In this document: in pieces, positions 32,464 to 45,586 of the stretch
Layout of the letters: each line of letters opens with the position of its first letter
How positions within the stretch are numbered: the first letter of the stretch is position 1
Virus record (IMG/VR): IMGVR_UViG_3300047171_000109
Span: 1-49,365 of that record
From: a virus
Strand: one strand, 5' to 3'
Length of the DNA stretch: 49,365 bases
Notes under the pieces: generated by a model
Told to the model about the DNA's origin: nothing
Database searches by the model: none
Seen by the model: the letters and a program-made list of their open reading frames with translations, nothing else
Program-made: the position numbers and the translations under genes

Positions 32464-32493
32464 TTTTTAGGCAAAAACTGGGAAGGGTGTCAA
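32464..32493 (-). promoter_or_regulatory. Candidate late promoter (pR'-like)
   Basis: Minus-strand TTGACA (32493-32488), an 18-base spacer, then TAAAAA (32469-32464), a good sigma70 match. It lies at the very end of the upstream regulator gene (stop at 32490) and about 25 bases before the terminator hairpin. Transcription would start near 32457 and would read the whole packaging, head and tail operon if it passes the terminator. Confidence 0.66.
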
Positions 32494-33104
32494 GCAGCAG
32501 TGCCAACCGCTTCAGAAACCAAACGAATTGCGGGAACCGGCAGAGTGATCCAACCCGCGATTTCCGCGTATCGGTAGAGCGACTCGCACACGTGATCCTT
32601 CACCTTTCGATGATCCATGCGCAAATGCTGGGCCAGCTGGCTGGGCCCGTAATTATCCACGGCTACCGAAAACACCACGTCGCATCGCGACTTGCCGGCG
32701 CCGACCACGATGCGTGCCTGCTCATCGCGCCACGGAATATAGTGGTTGCGGTAGGAACGTCGCAGCGATGCCGGCCAATCTTCCGCGCTGCCACCGCCGA
32801 CCGCGCCGAAGCGGCTGGTGGTGGCGAACAGCGTTCGCGTGATCGCCTCGAACACCTTGCCGATCTCCTGGGCAGCCCGCAGCTGATCGGCTGTCATCTG
32901 GCCGCGATCGAACATGCGCTGCGCCACGCAGGCGCGCGCCTTGTGCAGCGTTTCGGGCGTTGCCGCCTGTTCAAGCTCGGCACGGCGACATTCGCGTTCA
33001 TGCGCCACCAGGCGCTTGCGCCGCGCCTCCGCTTCGCGCAACCGACCCCATTCCTCGCGGTGCATTTCCACCGTGCGTTGCCCGAAACTTCCTGCCTGCG
33101 CCAT
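32490..33104 (-). CDS. Candidate late-gene regulator upstream of late promoter
   Basis: The ATG at 33104 has a GGGGG Shine-Dalgarno and gives 204 residues. The N-terminal third is charged and helical (MHREEWGRLREAEARRKRLV). The C-terminal section NYGPSQLAQHLRMDHRKVKD followed by ESLYRYAEIAGW resembles a helix-turn-helix with a short wing, as in ArpU/RinA-type or sigma4-like late regulators (weak). Location is telling: it ends exactly at the candidate late promoter and precedes a leader terminator, the position of antiterminator Q in lambda-like phages. It also follows the GTTACC cluster, which may be its control region. A variant of the dispersed palindrome is at 32824. Confidence 0.46.
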   Translation of the reverse strand: MAQAGSFGQRTVEMHREEWGRLREAEARRKRLVAHERECRRAELEQAATPETLHKARACVAQRMFDRGQMTADQLRAAQEIGKVFEAITRTLFATTSRFGAVGGGSAEDWPASLRRSYRNHYIPWRDEQARIVVGAGKSRCDVVFSVAVDNYGPSQLAQHLRMDHRKVKDHVCESLYRYAEIAGWITLPVPAIRLVSEAVGTAA

Positions 33105-33399
33105 GATTTCCCCCGATTTGAGCAATATCAACGCTGTTACCTGCGTTACCTAAAGTGTTACCTGAGGCGGCCAAATAACCCCTTATTATATCTATCTCTT
33201 TTCTAAGAAGGTAACAGGTAACGATGGTAACGCCTGTTTATGCCTATAGAACCGATGTGCGGCGGTGCGCTTTATGCGGTAGGAGACATGACGTTACCTA
33301 CGTTACCCGCGTTACCTCATTGATTTCATTGGGCCACACCGTTACCTCAGGTGTTACCTGCGTTACCACGCCGCAAGCGGCTGGAAACGCTGCATTATC
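33105..33399. other. Non-coding iteron-like control region
   Basis: No gene is seen in these 295 bases. They hold the hexamer cluster described separately and a strongly AT-rich centre (33170-33210). The stretch separates the helicase stop from the late-regulator gene and may hold an origin or a complex promoter. Confidence 0.7.
33136..33367. repeat. Cluster of twelve GTTACC/GGTAAC hexamers
   Basis: Plus-strand GTTACC occurs at 33136, 33145, 33157, 33293, 33302, 33311, 33341, 33353 and 33362; the inverse GGTAAC at 33210, 33217 and 33226. Seven of the plus copies read GTTACCT. Spacing between neighbours is 9, 12, 9, 9, 12 and 9 bases within groups, and 7 and 9 for the inverted trio. Groups flank an AT-rich segment (33170-33210, including CCTTATTATATCTATC). 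Chance clustering at this density is not credible. It looks like binding sites for a protein, as in phage or plasmid origins with iterons and a melting region. Confidence 0.9.
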
Positions 33400-35349
33400 C
33401 TACCATGGCGGTTTCTCAAACTCGCTGGCGGGCATTGGTTTTTCCTCCAAACCCAGATCGGCTGCACTCACCCAAATTGCACGTGTGGGCAGCGCGCCGA
33501 TCTTCATTGTCTTGCCAGAGGTGCGGCTGCTGGGCAGTTCAAGAAGGCCGGCATGCCAGCGCATCCCTTCCCACTCGCTGCCGTTGAACAGCGCCTTCAG
33601 CTCCTTGTTCGAATTCGCGAACCATACGCCGGCGGGCATGGCTTGGTCGGCCACGAGGTCGGAGTCGCCCGCGGCGCGCGCGGCCGTGCGCGCGGCCTGC
33701 ATGGCCTCGGCCGTGGACACGGTTTTAATGCCGTGCGCGGCCAGCACGCGGCGCGCGCGATCGGCGCCGATATTGGCCACGCGAGCCGCGCCATCGCGAC
33801 CGATGCGCCGCTCCATTTCGGCGTCGGTCTCGCCGGCGTGCAGGCAGATATCCATCAGGCTGGCCACCGGTTCGCGATCGGTGCTGCGATCCATCTGCAG
33901 GGCCGTGCTGAGCAGAAACTGCACCAGGCGGCGCGCGCTGCCTTCCTCGGCCACCATGTCGGCGGTGCGCACCAGCTTATCCAGCCCGGCCACGCCCGCG
34001 CGCGCATCCAGCACGTTCGGCACGCCTTCCTCGGTGAGGATCCACCAGCCGGCCAGGATGGCGCCGAACTGGTCCATCTCGCGTGGCTTGCAGCCGATGC
34101 GGCCGAGCTGATCGCGAAACGCCGCCAGGCTGGCGCCATATCTTTCGAAGGATGACAGGGCGCGGGACCAGAGTTTTGGCCCCGAGCGACGCATGCCCTC
34201 GGCCAGTTTTTCGTGGGCCACGGTGTGATCGGCGCCATCCTCCGGCGCCCGGAGTTTTATCAGCACCACGCGGCCCAGATGCGTATCCTTCATTTCCGGA
34301 TGGTGCGTCGCGGCGAAGAAAAAACTGCTGGCGATTTCGATCGCGCGCGATTTGCCGTCCGGGCTGCCGCGCGTGCCCTGCGTGCCGGTGCCGCCCGAGG
34401 CCGTCAGCACCATGTTCATCACCGATTCGGCCAGGCGCTTGTCCCGCGCCTCATCGTTTTCGTCGATAAACACGGGCATGGCGATGCCGGAAACGTCGCC
34501 CTCGATGCCCGCCTTGCTCGCATCGTTCTTGTACAGGTTCAGTGGGCAGCAGGCGACAAGCACCTGCATCAGCGCCGATTTGCCGCAGCCGCCCGGCCCG
34601 AAAATGAAGGCCGACGGGCGCCAATGCGCGGCCGCGCCCAGATAGGCCGTGCCCAGCACACCGATCACGGCGATCGCGCCGCCCTCTGCCGCGAAGCGGA
34701 ACAGCGATTGCAAATTTTGCTGCAGCGCGCGGCCAACCGAGGCATCGCATGGCGTATCCGGCCGGGGCTCGGGGGGCGCGGCGGCCCAGATCATGTTGCC
34801 GTCGCGAAACCCGGCTTTCTGCCACCCCGCGCCCACGCGCACCACGTCGCCGCAATGCACTGCGAGATCGGTTTGCCCATGCGGCCACACGCCGGGGCGG
34901 CGCACGCGCATGTGCTTGCCGAACATGCCGGCGGCAAAGCACTGGCTGCCGAGGTAGTTGGCCGCCGCATTGATGGTGAAATCAACCGTTACGTCCTGCG
35001 TCAGGATCTGGCCGTTATCGTCCCGGCGCGGTTTGCCGGCTTCATCGAGCACGGGCACGGTTTGTTTTTTCGGAAAATGCGCGCGCAGCCAGGAATCGTC
35101 GTGGCCGAACAGGTTCAGCAGATCGTGCCGGCTGCCGAGCTGCTTGGCGGTAAGCTCCCGTTTCTGGCCGATGCAGTCGGTGAACACCAGGCGGCCATCG
35201 ATATGGCCGAGCGCGTGCACCGGGCACGCCCTATCCGCATCGTCCGCCGGCGGTTCGGGCGGTTTTTTGCCTTTGCCGCCGTCGATCAAGGCAAACGCCC
35301 GATCGGCGCCCGCGATGGCCTGACGCACTTTGTCTTCGCCGGTCGGCAC
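33400..35349 (-). CDS. Phage helicase/primase-like ATPase (DUF927/D5-related)
   Basis: A GTG at 35349 overlapping the preceding stop by one base gives 649 residues. Walker A FGPGGCGKSAL lies at about residues 250-259 and Walker B FIDEND at about 294-299, followed by GGTGTQGTRGSPDGKS and a long helical C-terminus. DUF927/D5-like proteins of this size are replicative helicases in phages and plasmids. The frame before 35349 overlaps another gene and begins with no signal. The gene sits in the early leftward operon with a Toprim primase, and ends just before the iteron cluster, so it is a likely user of that site. Confidence 0.78.
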   Translation of the reverse strand: MPTGEDKVRQAIAGADRAFALIDGGKGKKPPEPPADDADRACPVHALGHIDGRLVFTDCIGQKRELTAKQLGSRHDLLNLFGHDDSWLRAHFPKKQTVPVLDEAGKPRRDDNGQILTQDVTVDFTINAAANYLGSQCFAAGMFGKHMRVRRPGVWPHGQTDLAVHCGDVVRVGAGWQKAGFRDGNMIWAAAPPEPRPDTPCDASVGRALQQNLQSLFRFAAEGGAIAVIGVLGTAYLGAAAHWRPSAFIFGPGGCGKSALMQVLVACCPLNLYKNDASKAGIEGDVSGIAMPVFIDENDEARDKRLAESVMNMVLTASGGTGTQGTRGSPDGKSRAIEIASSFFFAATHHPEMKDTHLGRVVLIKLRAPEDGADHTVAHEKLAEGMRRSGPKLWSRALSSFERYGASLAAFRDQLGRIGCKPREMDQFGAILAGWWILTEEGVPNVLDARAGVAGLDKLVRTADMVAEEGSARRLVQFLLSTALQMDRSTDREPVASLMDICLHAGETDAEMERRIGRDGAARVANIGADRARRVLAAHGIKTVSTAEAMQAARTAARAAGDSDLVADQAMPAGVWFANSNKELKALFNGSEWEGMRWHAGLLELPSSRTSGKTMKIGALPTRAIWVSAADLGLEEKPMPASEFEKPPW

Positions 35350-35843
35350 TACGAAAGCTCGAAGAATTGGCAGGGTTTTTCGCAGACGGGTCGCTGCAAA
35401 AGAGCCACTAAATCGAACGGGGAAACACAGATCGCCGAGCAAAGGAGATACATCAGCTCTGGCTCGAAACCGCGATCGTCGAGCAAAACAAATACGTCCT
35501 TACCCTGTCCGGCGGCATAACCCGCCTCGAGATGAGCCGAGCGGCCGCATGGCAGCAGTAATACGCACGTATCGCACCAATCCAGAGCGGTTTTGTCCGA
35601 CAAAAAACCCCGTTGCGCAACAGCGTTGGTCGTTATCGACCGTGCGAACTGCGCAGCCGACCACACTTGATAATGTTCGGACACTTCTCGCCAGGCAAAC
35701 CCATGCTCCCCCTCGCTGGGATTGCGGAAATCGTAAACGTCGTGGCCGGCGTTCCGGATAATTTCACAAAGAGTGGGCTGATCCTCATTCCGCCAGCTAG
35801 ATGCCACATAAACTCGCCGACGTTTAAGAACCGATTTGCTCAT
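35349..35843 (-). CDS. Nucleoside 2-deoxyribosyltransferase-like protein
   Basis: The ATG at 35843 (overlapping the Toprim stop) gives 164 residues. RRVYVASSWRNEDQPTLCEI, VYDFRNPSEGEHGF and DWCDTCVLLLPCGRSAHLEA followed by GYAAGQGKDVFVLLDD match nucleoside 2-deoxyribosyltransferase-like folds. The Glu in SAHLEAGYA corresponds to the catalytic position of this superfamily. Reactions include base exchange in nucleosides; some relatives process nucleotide signals. Its position between primase and helicase suggests nucleotide supply or metabolism in phage replication. Confidence 0.7.
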   Translation of the reverse strand: MSKSVLKRRRVYVASSWRNEDQPTLCEIIRNAGHDVYDFRNPSEGEHGFAWREVSEHYQVWSAAQFARSITTNAVAQRGFLSDKTALDWCDTCVLLLPCGRSAHLEAGYAAGQGKDVFVLLDDRGFEPELMYLLCSAICVSPFDLVALLQRPVCEKPCQFFELS

Positions 35844-36895
35844 TGCACCCTCAGACAATCGTTAAAATCTTTGCCGATCGGTGCGCGGGCGACGCGCACG
35901 TCGGGCACCGATCCGGCGAAGTGGTTGATGGCGCGCTGCAGGCCGATCGCCGCACCCGCATTCTCGCCGTCGTTGTCGCCCAGCAGCAGCACGCGGCCGA
36001 TCTGCGGCGGCAACGCCACGCTCGCCATGTTCGCCAGCGACACGCCGCACAGCACGCGCAGTTCAGGGCAGGCGATGGCGACCGACAGGCAGGTTTCGAT
36101 CCCCTCCCCGATCACCACCAGCTCGCCCGGCGGCGCATCCTTCAGCGACTTGCCGGAGGCGCCGCGCCACAGGCGAATGGTGCCGCCACGCGGCCGGCCG
36201 AGCGTTTTCTTGGCATCCTTCAGCGCGGCCTTGCCCCACGCCCCGCCCTGCTGCGCGAGATAGGTGCGGTGCACCGCATTCGTGCGGCCATCCATGCAGG
36301 TGATCGCGCCCAGCAGCGCCGGCAGGTCGGCCCCCGCCTCCGCGCAAAAACAGGCCGGATGGAAGCGCAGCGAGCGCGGCTGGCGGCCGAGACGCGACAG
36401 ATCGATGCCTCGCCCGCGCAGATAGGCGTCGGCCGGCGTGCCAGCCAGGCCGGCGCGGGCTTCGGCGAACCAGCGCAGGGCAGAGGCGCGGCGCTTGGCC
36501 TCATCGGCCTCGGCGGCCTTCTGCGCCCGTTCCGGCACGTGGGCGGCGACCGGCGCGGGCACGGCGCCGGTGCCCAGGCCAAGCCAGCGCAGCGACCAGG
36601 CATAAGCCGCCTTGCGATCACCGCGATAGAGCACGGCCGCCACCAGATCGAGCGCGTCGCCCGACTCGCCGGTGGAAAAATCGGCCCACACGCCGGCCTT
36701 CTCGCCCCGCAGATGCACGCGACAGGATCCGTTCTTGTTCGGCGCCGCGCCATGCACGCCGGCCACGCACCATTCCTGCCCACCCGGCCGATCGAGCCGG
36801 CCGTTGGGCAAAATTTCCCGCACCAGGTCGCGCACGCGGCCGGCCAGCCTGCGACTGACGTCTTCGGCATCGATGCGCGGCGCCATGCTGCCCAT
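35840..36895 (-). CDS. Toprim-domain primase
   Basis: The ATG at 36895 overlaps the GcrA stop by one base and gives 351 residues. The N-terminal part has ACVAGVHGAAPNK-like text and VWADFSTGESGDALDLVAAV, a phage primase mark. The Toprim fold follows with GELVVIGEGIETCLS (Glu264) and LLLGDNDGENAGAAIG (Asp cluster 306-309). No N-terminal zinc cysteines are seen. It should make primers for leading or lagging strand synthesis together with the helicase. The start at 36946 would read into GcrA and is rejected. Confidence 0.85.
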   Translation of the reverse strand: MGSMAPRIDAEDVSRRLAGRVRDLVREILPNGRLDRPGGQEWCVAGVHGAAPNKNGSCRVHLRGEKAGVWADFSTGESGDALDLVAAVLYRGDRKAAYAWSLRWLGLGTGAVPAPVAAHVPERAQKAAEADEAKRRASALRWFAEARAGLAGTPADAYLRGRGIDLSRLGRQPRSLRFHPACFCAEAGADLPALLGAITCMDGRTNAVHRTYLAQQGGAWGKAALKDAKKTLGRPRGGTIRLWRGASGKSLKDAPPGELVVIGEGIETCLSVAIACPELRVLCGVSLANMASVALPPQIGRVLLLGDNDGENAGAAIGLQRAINHFAGSVPDVRVARAPIGKDFNDCLRVQ

Positions 36896-37389
36896 CAGGC
36901 GCGCCGCCGCACGGTGATCCAGGCCCGCCGCTGATGTTCCGCGCAATAGGGCTTCAGTTTTTCGGCCGGCGCGCTGCAGAACCGAAAACTTGGCGAACCG
37001 GGATCGCCTTCCGGCCAGCAGCAGGCGCGGTCGGGCGGCGGCTTTAAGGCAACCGGGACGAGGATTTTCGGCGGCGCAGCCGCGGGCGCTGCAACCGGCA
37101 GCGCTTTCGATTGCAGCTGTTCCTTCGCGGGCGCTTTCGAATGCGGCTGTTCTTTCGGAGGCGCTGCGATCGAGGGCGGTGGTGCAATCGTGGTTTGGCC
37201 GGCGCGCACGCGGCTACGGCGCCCCGGCACGCGCGGCACGAGCGATTTGATATTGAGCCGATGAACTTTGCCGGCAACTGCATTCGGTGAAATGCCCATA
37301 CGCGCGGCGATGGCATCGAAACGTGCCCCCCCCTCACGCAACGCCCTCAGCTCTGCAATGCGCGCCTCCGTCCATTCTGCGTCAGGCAT
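36895..37389 (-). CDS. gcrA: GcrA-family cell-cycle regulator, phage-encoded
   Basis: A 164-residue protein: WTEARIAELRALREGGARFD, then AIAARMGISPNAVAGKVHRL (helix-turn-helix), a Pro/Ala/Lys-rich linker (45-120) and the C-terminal RACCWPEGDPGSPSFRFCSA followed by KLKPYCAEHQRRAW. That is the complete GcrA architecture. GcrA binds sigma70 holoenzyme and acts at GANTC sites methylated by CcrM to control cell-cycle genes in alphaproteobacteria (established). A phage copy could redirect host or phage promoters at methylated GANTC. It lies between a triple-HTH protein and the primase. Confidence 0.87.
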   Translation of the reverse strand: MPDAEWTEARIAELRALREGGARFDAIAARMGISPNAVAGKVHRLNIKSLVPRVPGRRSRVRAGQTTIAPPPSIAAPPKEQPHSKAPAKEQLQSKALPVAAPAAAPPKILVPVALKPPPDRACCWPEGDPGSPSFRFCSAPAEKLKPYCAEHQRRAWITVRRRA

Positions 37390-38593
37390 GTGCACGCTCC
37401 AACGGCCTTTTGCCGGCGAGTTTCAGCGCGCGGTTGCGCCGCATGCGTGCCTGATTTTCCTCCATCTCCGCGCGGCGCGCGGTTTCCGCGGCATCGACGA
37501 TTTCGCGTATGGCGGCCGCTTCCGCCGGCGTCGGCGTGTGGGTGGTAACGACCGCGATTGCCGGCGGGCAGAGCGTTACGCCCTTTTGCGCGATATGCGC
37601 GGCGATCGCCGCGGCCTCGGCCGCGCGTTTTCGCTCAGCCGGCGTCGGGATGCGCGGCGGCGGCGCAGCGGCACTTTGCGGCGGCTGATACGCCGCTAGC
37701 TTTGGCGGCGCGCCCTTGGCCGGAACCGGCGTTTTGCGCGCGGCCGGCGCGCCGGTTTTCGCAGGCGCAGGCGCGGCCGCGGGCGGCGCTGCGGGCGGCT
37801 GTTCGTCAAGCCCCAGCTCTGCGCCCCAGGCGCACATCCGCGCCAGCGTAAGCCGAGGGCCGGCCTGCATGTTCAGCAAGGCGAGAATACCTGCGCGCGG
37901 TTTGTCGGCGCGCCAGGTGGCGCGCAAAATCGCCTCGCGCGCCTTCGTGCGCAGCTCGGCATTGTCCGCTGCCGGCGCGGCGCGGCCGTTGAACCCAGGC
38001 GGTCGCTTCAGGCCAAGATCATAGGCCATGATACTCAAATCGTCGCCGCACAGCTTGCGGCCAGGCAACGCATTCAGCAGCGGCAGCAGATCCACGTTCA
38101 GCATGCCCGCGGGATAGTGCTCGCGCAGCAGCGCGTCGCGCTCGGCCGAGCGGCGGCGCGCCATCGATACGGGCTGCCCCGGCCCCGCGTCTCGCTGCGC
38201 GTCGTGATACCGCTTGGTGGCTGCCGCCTTGAAACCTGGCGGCCGCTTCAATCCCGCGACATTCGCGGCCCGCGCCACATGCTTCAGCTCGAAAGGCGGC
38301 CCGGGCAGCGCGTTGATCAGCGGCAAAATCTCGGCGGCCGGCGTGCCGGCCGGATAATGCTCGCGCAGCACATCGATGCGCGCGGCCGAGTATTTCGGCG
38401 AAAGCGACGACGGCACAGGCTTTGCCGCTGGCGCCGGCACGGCTTTCAGAGGCACCGCCGGATTTGGAGGCAGCGGCGCGATGCACGCGATCAGACGCTC
38501 GACGTCGGCGGCGAGATTACGCAGCGAGGCGACGATACGCTGGCAGACCGGGCCGACATCGGCCTCATGCGGCATCTGAAAAATGCCGGGCAT
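37382..38593 (-). CDS. Protein with three tandem GcrA-like helix-turn-helix repeats
   Basis: An ATG at 38593 overlapping the upstream stop by one base gives 403 residues. Three similar units occur at about 69-121, 147-201 and 216-266. The first two share ...LREHYPAG....(I/L)LPL(I/L)NALPG and end GLKRPPGF; the third has AGILALLNMQAG.RLTLARM. Each looks like a Myb/GcrA-type HTH that would read a DNA half-site. The C-terminal 130 residues are Ala/Pro-rich and basic. Three DNA-binding units in one chain suggest binding to repeated sites, such as the GTTACC cluster (speculative). No known family was recognised. Confidence 0.58.
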   Translation of the reverse strand: MPGIFQMPHEADVGPVCQRIVASLRNLAADVERLIACIAPLPPNPAVPLKAVPAPAAKPVPSSLSPKYSAARIDVLREHYPAGTPAAEILPLINALPGPPFELKHVARAANVAGLKRPPGFKAAATKRYHDAQRDAGPGQPVSMARRRSAERDALLREHYPAGMLNVDLLPLLNALPGRKLCGDDLSIMAYDLGLKRPPGFNGRAAPAADNAELRTKAREAILRATWRADKPRAGILALLNMQAGPRLTLARMCAWGAELGLDEQPPAAPPAAAPAPAKTGAPAARKTPVPAKGAPPKLAAYQPPQSAAAPPPRIPTPAERKRAAEAAAIAAHIAQKGVTLCPPAIAVVTTHTPTPAEAAAIREIVDAAETARRAEMEENQARMRRNRALKLAGKRPLERAHA

Positions 38594-43509: not shown

Positions 43510-43817
43510 TAAAATGCGTTGGTTGTCACAGAGAGTTTCCGGCGCGCGATGGGTTTGTCCGCGGGCTTTGTCCCATGTGCGTAAAAATAGGCATGACCTT
43601 TGAAGAACTGCCTCCCGACGCGCCGAGCTTCGCCCGCGCGATACCCATTGGCGAACTTGCTTCGGCCTGCTTGCGGAAACTGGCACTGAACCATCTCATC
43701 CTTATGCAAGACCGCGTGCCGCCCGGCGTGAATTTTCTCGACGACGCAATCGAAGCGCTCGATATCGCCGACAAGCTGCAGGGAAGCGAACCGCGTTCGC
43801 CGGGGGCTGCGCCATGA
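43497..43817 (+). CDS. Zinc-ribbon protein
   Basis: The ATG at 43497 gives 106 residues. KCVGCHREFPARDGFVRGLCPMC is a CxxC...CxxC zinc-ribbon near the start; the rest is helical and acidic (PPDAPSFARAIPIGELASA). Its stop overlaps the ParB-like start (ATGA). A variant palindrome GCGAACCGCGTTCGC (43786-43800) lies at its end. Such proteins may be DNA or RNA-binding adaptors. Confidence 0.55.
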   Translation: MASLIKCVGCHREFPARDGFVRGLCPMCVKIGMTFEELPPDAPSFARAIPIGELASACLRKLALNHLILMQDRVPPGVNFLDDAIEALDIADKLQGSEPRSPGAAP

Positions 43818-45586
43818 GCGCCACGGCCACGGCCGCCGCGTTTTGGGACGCGTTCGATCGGCTTGCCGGCGACGTTCCCATCACGCAGATCGAAACCGAA
43901 TCGGGCCTCGGCCGCGGCACGCTTTCCAAGGCGCGCGCGGCCGTTACCGTGCCCGGCTCGCTTTCCACGCTGATGGCGGTGGCGCAGCGTTTTGGCGTGG
44001 CGCCGGCGGCGCTGCTGCCCGATTTGGCCGGCGCGCCGCAAACGCCGGATGCAGCCTCGATCTGCGAAATCCAACTCGGCTGCATTCGCGCCAGCGCACT
44101 GAACCCGCGCCGCAGTTTTGACGACGACGCGATCGCGGAGCTGGCAGAAAGCATCGCGGCGCAAGGGCTTTTGCAAAACCTCGTCGTTCGCAAGGATCCT
44201 GATCAGCCGGAACTCTACTGGGTGGTGGCCGGCGAACGCCGTTCGCGTGCGCTGGCGAAGCTGCGGGCCGAAGGCCGGCTGCCGGCCGATCTCGCCGCCA
44301 ACGGCATCCCGTGCCGCATCATCACGCTCGACGATGAGGAGCATGTGGCGCTGGCGCTGGTGGAAAACCTCCAGCGCGAGGATGTCAACCCGATGGAGGA
44401 GGCAGAGGCGCTCGATCGCCTGCACCGCGCAAACCCCGAAAAATGGACCACGAAATTCCTGGCCGAACGAATCGGCAAAACCCAGCGCTTCGTCCAGCAG
44501 CGCCTGGCGCTGGCCGCGAAACTTCCCGACGACGCGAAAGATGCTTTGCGTGGTGGCCGCATTACGATCGAACAGGCCCGCGTGATCGCCAGCGCGCCGG
44601 CCGAGGAGATGGATGACGTCATACGCCGCGCGGTGGACCATCAGATTCCGGCCAAGCACCTCGCGCTCGACGTTAGCCATTCGTTTTTCCCCGCCAAATT
44701 TGCTCTGTTCGATGTCGCCACGTGCGGGTTGGAAACCTGGACCGATCCAAACACGGATGAGGTTTTCTTCCCCGATTTCGACACGGCCATGGCGCTGCAG
44801 GAAGCCAAGGTGAACGAGAAGCAGCAGGCCTATCTCGACGCCGGCGCCGATTTTGTAGAAATCGTGGAATATTTTGTCCCGAGCCATTACCCCGAAGGCG
44901 GCAAAGGCGTTGTGATCTGCTGCGACAATGACGGCGAGGTGTCGATATTCGAGAATCGGCGCCGCGCCGAAGATGTGGCCGCCGGCAAAAGCGAAGCGGC
45001 AGCGCCAAAAGTATCCCATTGGGAAGCAGCGCCAAAAGTATCCCATTGGGAAGCAGCGCCAAAAGTATCCCATTGGGAAATCGAGGCTCGATACCGCGCG
45101 CAATGTGCCGACGCAGCCAGAAAACTGGTGGCGAAGCTGGGCCCGACGTTGTCGCCCACCGATGCGATCGCGCTGTTTCTCTACGGCCTGGCACTACCCG
45201 CCGTTTCCGCCACCAAAAATTATGGCGCCAACGCGGAAGGCCCCGATCAGAAAGCGCTATTCAACGAACTGCGCAGTTTCAAGCTGGGCGACCCCGCGGC
45301 GTTCAAGCACGTGCGCGATTGCGATCTGCCCCTGATGGACAAGGCCTTCAGCCAGGCCGTCGCCGCCATGATCCACGTGGGCACCACCATCAGCCCTGCC
45401 CTGCTGGTGTTGGCGCAGCGGCACAAGATCGCCGTGCCCGCCATTCTGCGCCACACCCCCAAGCAAAAGGCCGAGGCGCTGAAGCGCATCGAGCAGGATC
45501 TGCTGGGCCAGACCGATCTGGAAGATGGCGTCGCCGCCAAAAAGGCCGCGGCCGCCACGGAGGAACCGGAGGATGAGGCCGCATGA
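43814..45586 (+). CDS. ParB-like protein with N-terminal HTH and internal triple repeat
   Basis: A 590-residue protein. The N-terminus (TQIETESGLGRGTLSKARAA) is an extra HTH. The ParB/Srx core follows: ALNPRRSFDDDAIAELAESI, VVAGERRSRALAKL, RIITLDDEEHVALALVENLQ, REDVNPMEEAEALDRLH and a second HTH at about 205-245 (TKFLAERIGKTQRFVQQRLA). Residues 396-422 are three perfect copies of AAPKVSHWE. The C-terminal 160 residues are helical. No ParA is encoded. ParB proteins bind parS sites and hydrolyse CTP; here a role in partition, replication or regulation is open. One dispersed palindrome (44232-44246) is inside the gene. Confidence 0.78.
   Translation: MSATATAAAFWDAFDRLAGDVPITQIETESGLGRGTLSKARAAVTVPGSLSTLMAVAQRFGVAPAALLPDLAGAPQTPDAASICEIQLGCIRASALNPRRSFDDDAIAELAESIAAQGLLQNLVVRKDPDQPELYWVVAGERRSRALAKLRAEGRLPADLAANGIPCRIITLDDEEHVALALVENLQREDVNPMEEAEALDRLHRANPEKWTTKFLAERIGKTQRFVQQRLALAAKLPDDAKDALRGGRITIEQARVIASAPAEEMDDVIRRAVDHQIPAKHLALDVSHSFFPAKFALFDVATCGLETWTDPNTDEVFFPDFDTAMALQEAKVNEKQQAYLDAGADFVEIVEYFVPSHYPEGGKGVVICCDNDGEVSIFENRRRAEDVAAGKSEAAAPKVSHWEAAPKVSHWEAAPKVSHWEIEARYRAQCADAARKLVAKLGPTLSPTDAIALFLYGLALPAVSATKNYGANAEGPDQKALFNELRSFKLGDPAAFKHVRDCDLPLMDKAFSQAVAAMIHVGTTISPALLVLAQRHKIAVPAILRHTPKQKAEALKRIEQDLLGQTDLEDGVAAKKAAAATEEPEDEAA
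44999..45079. repeat. Three perfect 27-bp tandem repeats inside the ParB-like gene
   Basis: Copies at 44999-45025, 45026-45052 and 45053-45079 are identical. Each encodes nine residues and contains TCCCATTGGGA, an 11-bp near-perfect palindrome. Their perfect identity suggests recent expansion or a conserved DNA role, since iterons inside an initiator gene are known from lambda O. Confidence 0.95.

Follow-up and report, generated by a model that had tools for sequence, protein, structure and literature searches.

A hexamer array 3′ of a helicase gene

The window analyzed in this study is the complete sequence of an IMG/VR virus record (IMGVR_UViG_3300047171_000109; 49,365 bases). The minus strand carries, in order, a primase gene, a 169-aa ORF, a 680-aa helicase ORF, an array of short repeats, a 213-aa ORF, and genes for a minor tail protein and the terminase. 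The primase (35840–36946, minus strand), identified by Pfam and PHROG matches, has DUF7146 and Toprim_3 domains and is encoded upstream of the helicase in the same direction. The 680-aa ORF (33400–35442, minus strand) was assigned as a putative initiator helicase from its matches to phrog_21086 and phrog_35358 and from an AlphaFold2 (AF2) model, in which an N-terminal domain, an AAA+ core, and a C-terminal domain are distinguished. The 169-aa ORF (35349–35858) belongs to the nucleoside deoxyribosyltransferase family and overlaps the helicase ORF at the latter's start; L163 was the only related locus searched in which a relative was found. The 213-aa ORF (32490–33131, minus strand), which the original prediction had named as a late-regulator candidate, comes just after the array and gave no Pfam or PHROG match. 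Elsewhere in the window, a GcrA-family cell-cycle regulator in the early region (36895–37395) points to an alphaproteobacterial host, and a ParB-like protein (43814–45586) shows an N-terminal HTH-like region and, in its C-terminal half, a triple repeat of about nine residues (AAPKVSHWE).

The array (33136–33367) consists of nine GTTACC and three GGTAAC copies. Against an expectation of about 0.06, these 232 bp contain 12 hexamers (log10 Poisson probability about -24 to -26). An exact recount agreed with the copy numbers and positions originally described. Start-to-start spacings of 9,12 / 7,9 / 9,9 / 12,9 define four trios: trio A (33136–33162, plus strand; GTTACC at 33136, 33145, and 33157), trio B (33210–33231, minus strand; GGTAAC at 33210, 33217, and 33226), trio C (33293–33316, plus strand; GTTACC at 33293, 33302, and 33311), and trio D (33341–33367, plus strand; GTTACC at 33341, 33353, and 33362), the last being nearest to the helicase stop. 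The AT-rich block reported between groups was confirmed between trios A and B (33163–33209, 64% AT); only 0.2% of the 47-bp stretches of this GC-rich record equal or exceed it, and it is proposed here as a DNA-unwinding element. Because the helicase gene lies on the minus strand and ends at 33400, the array is located downstream (3′) of the helicase stop, at a distance of 32 bp. The gap is indeed free of genes, but from this stop to the next ORF, which starts at or below 33131, it measures about 268 bp and not 295 bp. Over the whole window GTTACC occurs 26 times, compared with 6.6 ± 2.4 times in shuffles, none of which reached 26; no second GTTACC cluster was found in the window.

Recurrence of the array and its layout

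Among phages, the closest match to the helicase was that of Synechococcus phage MinM1, at 29.5% identity. The gap following the MinM1 helicase gene has a similar arrangement of twelve CTCACA/TGTGAG hexamers, and GTTACC is absent from this locus. The presence of an array with another hexamer suggested a class in which the layout is constant and the word changes. A viral test set was assembled by helicase homology alone, with no use of the hexamer, and included 80 loci (79 viral loci and MinM1) with enough sequence 3′ of the gene. Strong hexamer arrays were detected at -60 to +450 of the helicase stop in 45 of these loci, vs. 5 of 480 other windows from the same loci; in many of the remaining loci the array was further off. 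After removal of near-duplicates, two-orientation arrays were present in 43 of 58 viral loci, usually just 3′ of the helicase, and in none of 58 Markov-simulated controls, although statistics across loci are optimistic since the loci share descent. About a dozen loci have the array 1–3 kb from the helicase stop. Contigs of bacterial genomes were used as a second set, and a two-orientation array was called in 30 of 53. The loci where no array was called (15/58 viral and 23/53 genome loci) mostly encode helicases of 900+ aa; L208, L229, and L254 also gave no call although their helicases are close in size. The array caller missed the closest bacterial relative (L207, from an Acetobacteraceae MAG), since its sites are divided between two spellings of the word. 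In L204 (6287 onward), 13 ACTTGA sites in a single direction and in 15-bp steps, unlike the others, begin about 0.9 kb after the helicase gene.

Arrays commonly have 12 sites grouped into four trios and tend toward dyad symmetry; 12 is also the commonest exact site number (12/43 arrays). In the viral set, whose loci are related by descent, inner trios were spaced 8–9 bp in 71 of 73 cases and outer ones 10–13 bp in 64 of 83 (Fisher p 8e-24). The same tendency was observed in the genome set, with 9 bp or less in 29/31 inner vs. 15/32 outer cases (p 7e-5). Dyad-symmetric sites were in excess in both sets: 292 of 437 in the viral set (null mean 196, maximum 214) and 124 of 211 in the genome set (null 92, maximum 106). 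Where a partner site was missing, 11 of 72 mirror positions had a one-mismatch site, compared with 1% in controls. The large gaps show suggestive helical phasing, with a Rayleigh p of about 5e-6 at 10.5 bp and a stronger signal at 11–11.5, but they are not independent of one another. The AT-richer side gap occupied the same distal position in 26/26 measured viral arrays but in only 6/14 genome-set arrays, so this bias is kept solely as a feature of the viral set. The array in the window has the twelve sites and roughly keeps the spacing rule, but strand symmetry is absent: its score of 6/12 is no better than chance (133/300 shuffles), because trio D has the opposite orientation to that expected from the dyad pattern and the side gaps are unequal (30 vs. 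53).

The hexamer word varies with helicase identity. AGTTAC was found at 49% identity, TCTACA and GTGAGA at about 40%, and CTCACA or GTGTGA at about 30%. Conservation of the hexamers in related phages, by which the original prediction was to be judged, proved too strict a test for the exact hexamer, since the word has already changed at 47% identity; the array and its layout are conserved. The GTTAC core was nevertheless present in 16 of 43 arrays, vs. 0.4% of all hexamers.

The helicase and known replication systems

By PHROG search, the helicase matched phrog_21086 (unknown function; E 4e-149) and phrog_35358 (annotated as DNA primase; E 2e-22); Pfam gave no match. Its Walker A motif lies near residues 282–289. 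Comparison of its sequence profile with solved structures returned P-loop matches only, and no close relatives were obtained from single-protein scans. The AF2 model, built on an alignment of 39 relatives, has a pLDDT of 87. Its top match among solved structures is Cch of SCCmec, an MCM-like helicase (PDB 5dgk; Z 17.1, with 427 residues aligned between positions 68 and 666), at 10% sequence identity and from another element and host; SaPI5 Rep (7om0) scored Z 13.6. MCM helicases ranked after Cch, mostly over the AAA+ part only. Judged solely by the fold of this model, which is similar to Cch over the whole protein, the predicted product falls within the Cch/SaPI Rep/D5 group of AAA+ helicases. 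The C-terminal domain modeled alone (pLDDT 88.7) gave weak fold matches (best Z 4.9), mostly to winged-helix DNA-binding proteins.

It has been reported that PICI origins lie immediately 3′ of rep and contain two iteron sets flanking an AT-rich region (PMC6092414). The SaPI/PICI origins of SaPIbov1, SaPI5, and EcCICFT073 share with the window a primase and an initiator helicase followed at once by short two-orientation iterons around an AT-rich region. At the present locus the array starts 32 bp 3′ of a helicase with the predicted fold of this group, opposite iteron sets (trios A, plus, and B, minus) flank the AT-rich block, and two further trios lie beyond. The EcCICFT073 origin, which we read directly, begins right after the primase-helicase gene and has eleven exact GGTAGA sites with spacings of 9,46,22,11,9,31,11,22,46,9. 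Both arrays are thus built of hexamers (GGTAGA there, GGTAAC here), and that of EcCICFT073 has a mirror layout with 9–11 bp, 22 bp, and 31/46 bp spacings; its order is 2+1+3 mirrored, whereas four trios are found here. SaPIs and PICIs are small satellites, whereas the window represents a tailed phage of full size, which carries terminase and tail genes of its own and a helicase without Pfam match. Assignment of the element to the PICIs was rejected on the same grounds: an element that encodes a terminase and a minor tail protein is a phage and not a satellite dependent on a helper for virion and packaging functions.

Cch and SaPIbov1 Rep are related proteins, and Cch2 uses its C-terminal domain to bind short iterons that directly follow its gene (PMC7581432). 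The putative SCCmec origin at cch2 resembles our locus in this position of short iterons, but has only three AAGTG iterons, a D5-type helicase, and an A-family polymerase as primase. In phage P4, iterons required in cis (crr) are likewise located just 3′ of the primase-helicase gene alpha; crr begins 46 bp after alpha, and ten type 1 repeats are annotated. The P4 iterons are 8-bp sites in both orientations with spacings of about 9–18 bp and about 43 bp. P4 differs in its GGTGAACA-type iterons, in crr being a duplicated 120-bp unit, in a separate annotated origin, and in the fusion of primase and helicase. With GTTACC as the iteron and a single cluster in the window, the locus does not belong to the P4 alpha/crr/ori type. 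For the archaeal plasmid pRN1, 166 bp downstream of the replication protein gene are reported to be essential (PMC4234260); this archaeal case is likened to ours by position.

Proposed replication origin and alternative readings

Arrays with a conserved layout and lineage-specific hexamers recur beside genes for homologous helicases. Based on these data, the array is very probably a phage replication origin that depends on a self-loading initiator helicase, as in SaPI, PICI, and P4, but here in a full-size temperate phage. Use of the array as an origin by the replication machinery, one of the readings first offered, is thus well supported, with the adjacent helicase as the natural binder. In the proposed mechanism, the helicase encoded at 33400–35442 would recognize GTTACC via its C-terminal domain (about residues 494–666). 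The twelve sites in four trios would seat two helicase hexamers, with approximately one protomer per site; these rings would melt the AT-rich block separating trios A and B and become loaded. Unwinding would be powered by ATP hydrolysis, and the Toprim primase, encoded two genes upstream, would prime synthesis from what would then be an active origin.

It had been stated that no such system was known for this phage type. The origin type is in fact known from SaPI/PICI satellites and P4 (PMC6092414, PMC7581432); the statement holds insofar as no description for a tailed phage of this sort was found in open-licence papers, and nothing relevant was obtained from that literature on GTTACC or on comparable phage iteron origins. 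New are the full-size phage setting, the hexamer itself, and a geometry that is conserved while the sequence is free. Phages and prophages of full size, from several bacterial groups, are now seen to have a closely similar organization, and more than 40 natural array-helicase pairs are available in which the geometry is constant and the recognized word varies. With these pairs it can be tested directly in what way an origin is read by a self-loading helicase, whether two rings of six account for the twelve sites, and how cross-talk between phage origins is avoided. Array calling beside the helicase offers a simple route to the origins of many uncharacterized phages.

A broader proposal, which we rate at slightly less than an even chance, is that a large unrecognized class of tailed phages starts replication on a standard platform: a 6-bp word set out under a fixed rule in four trios (inner 8–9 bp, outer 10–13 bp), in dyad layout with about 12 sites, which would seat a double helicase hexamer with one protomer per site, the word being rewritten by lineage together with the helicase. 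If so, dozens of natural initiator-iteron pairs would exist, with many mutually blind origins on one geometry.

An alternative is an accessory cis element comparable to P4 crr: the helicase would bind it, and replication would require it but start elsewhere in the phage. P4 offers a precedent, as crr is just 3′ of alpha but more than 4 kb from the annotated origin. Nor is the array marked by skew: in the window the GC skew changes sign about 1–1.2 kb from it (cumulative maximum 32392), with gene direction unchanged there, but no consistent switch at the array was found across 17 relatives, and GC skew was therefore dropped as evidence for an origin. We nevertheless regard an accessory role as unlikely: P4 has a second iteron cluster at its origin, whereas the window has none, and PICI and SaPI origins at the same position 3′ of rep have been reported to be functional (PMC6092414).

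Other candidate binders were compared by their constancy beside the arrays. Since the loci were selected by the helicase, its presence alone proves nothing, and the test is whether another protein is equally constant. Relatives of the primase were found in 26 of 38 array-bearing records; the primase, the 213-aa gene, and the ParB-like gene were all below the helicase. These counts bear on the earlier suggestion of a multi-site control region, in which the 213-aa product or another regulator would bind the hexamers and control the late genes downstream. The array does lie between genes of the same direction, and a weak sigma-70-like match spans 33131–33103. An operator is nonetheless very improbable: relatives of the 213-aa gene are present in only 13/80 loci, whereas arrays track the helicase, and from gene content the array class does not appear to require this gene; several relatives have the array 1–3 kb from the helicase stop, beside other genes; and twelve sites over 230 bp around an AT-rich core would be unusual for an operator. 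Least probable of all, and hardly credible, is a ParB-type centromere read by the ParB-like protein, as the gene exists in the window but is 10 kb away and has relatives in only 3 of 38 array-bearing records (some of them fragments), and the 6-bp sites, short and strictly spaced in trios, do not resemble parS.

Raw triple matches of GTTACC mix arrays with coding tandem repeats; a helicase was near 11 of 26 two-orientation clusters vs. 5 of 94 others. Among GTTACC arrays selected for abutting a large ORF, all ten ORFs checked encode primase/helicase proteins of several families, including VapE-like, DUF5906, DUF927, and Toprim plus AAA_25 proteins; having been found via the hexamer, these cases show breadth, not rate. 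Two such arrays directly follow helicases of the DUF927 (SaPIbov1 Rep/Cch) family (L043:4155–4257 and L051:3330–3550), the layout in L051 being more compact. Dense two-orientation GTTACC arrays of 11–12 sites were also observed in L019, L049, L056, and L116, with no recognized helicase of the query set nearby, and other initiators may share the GTTACC word at these loci.
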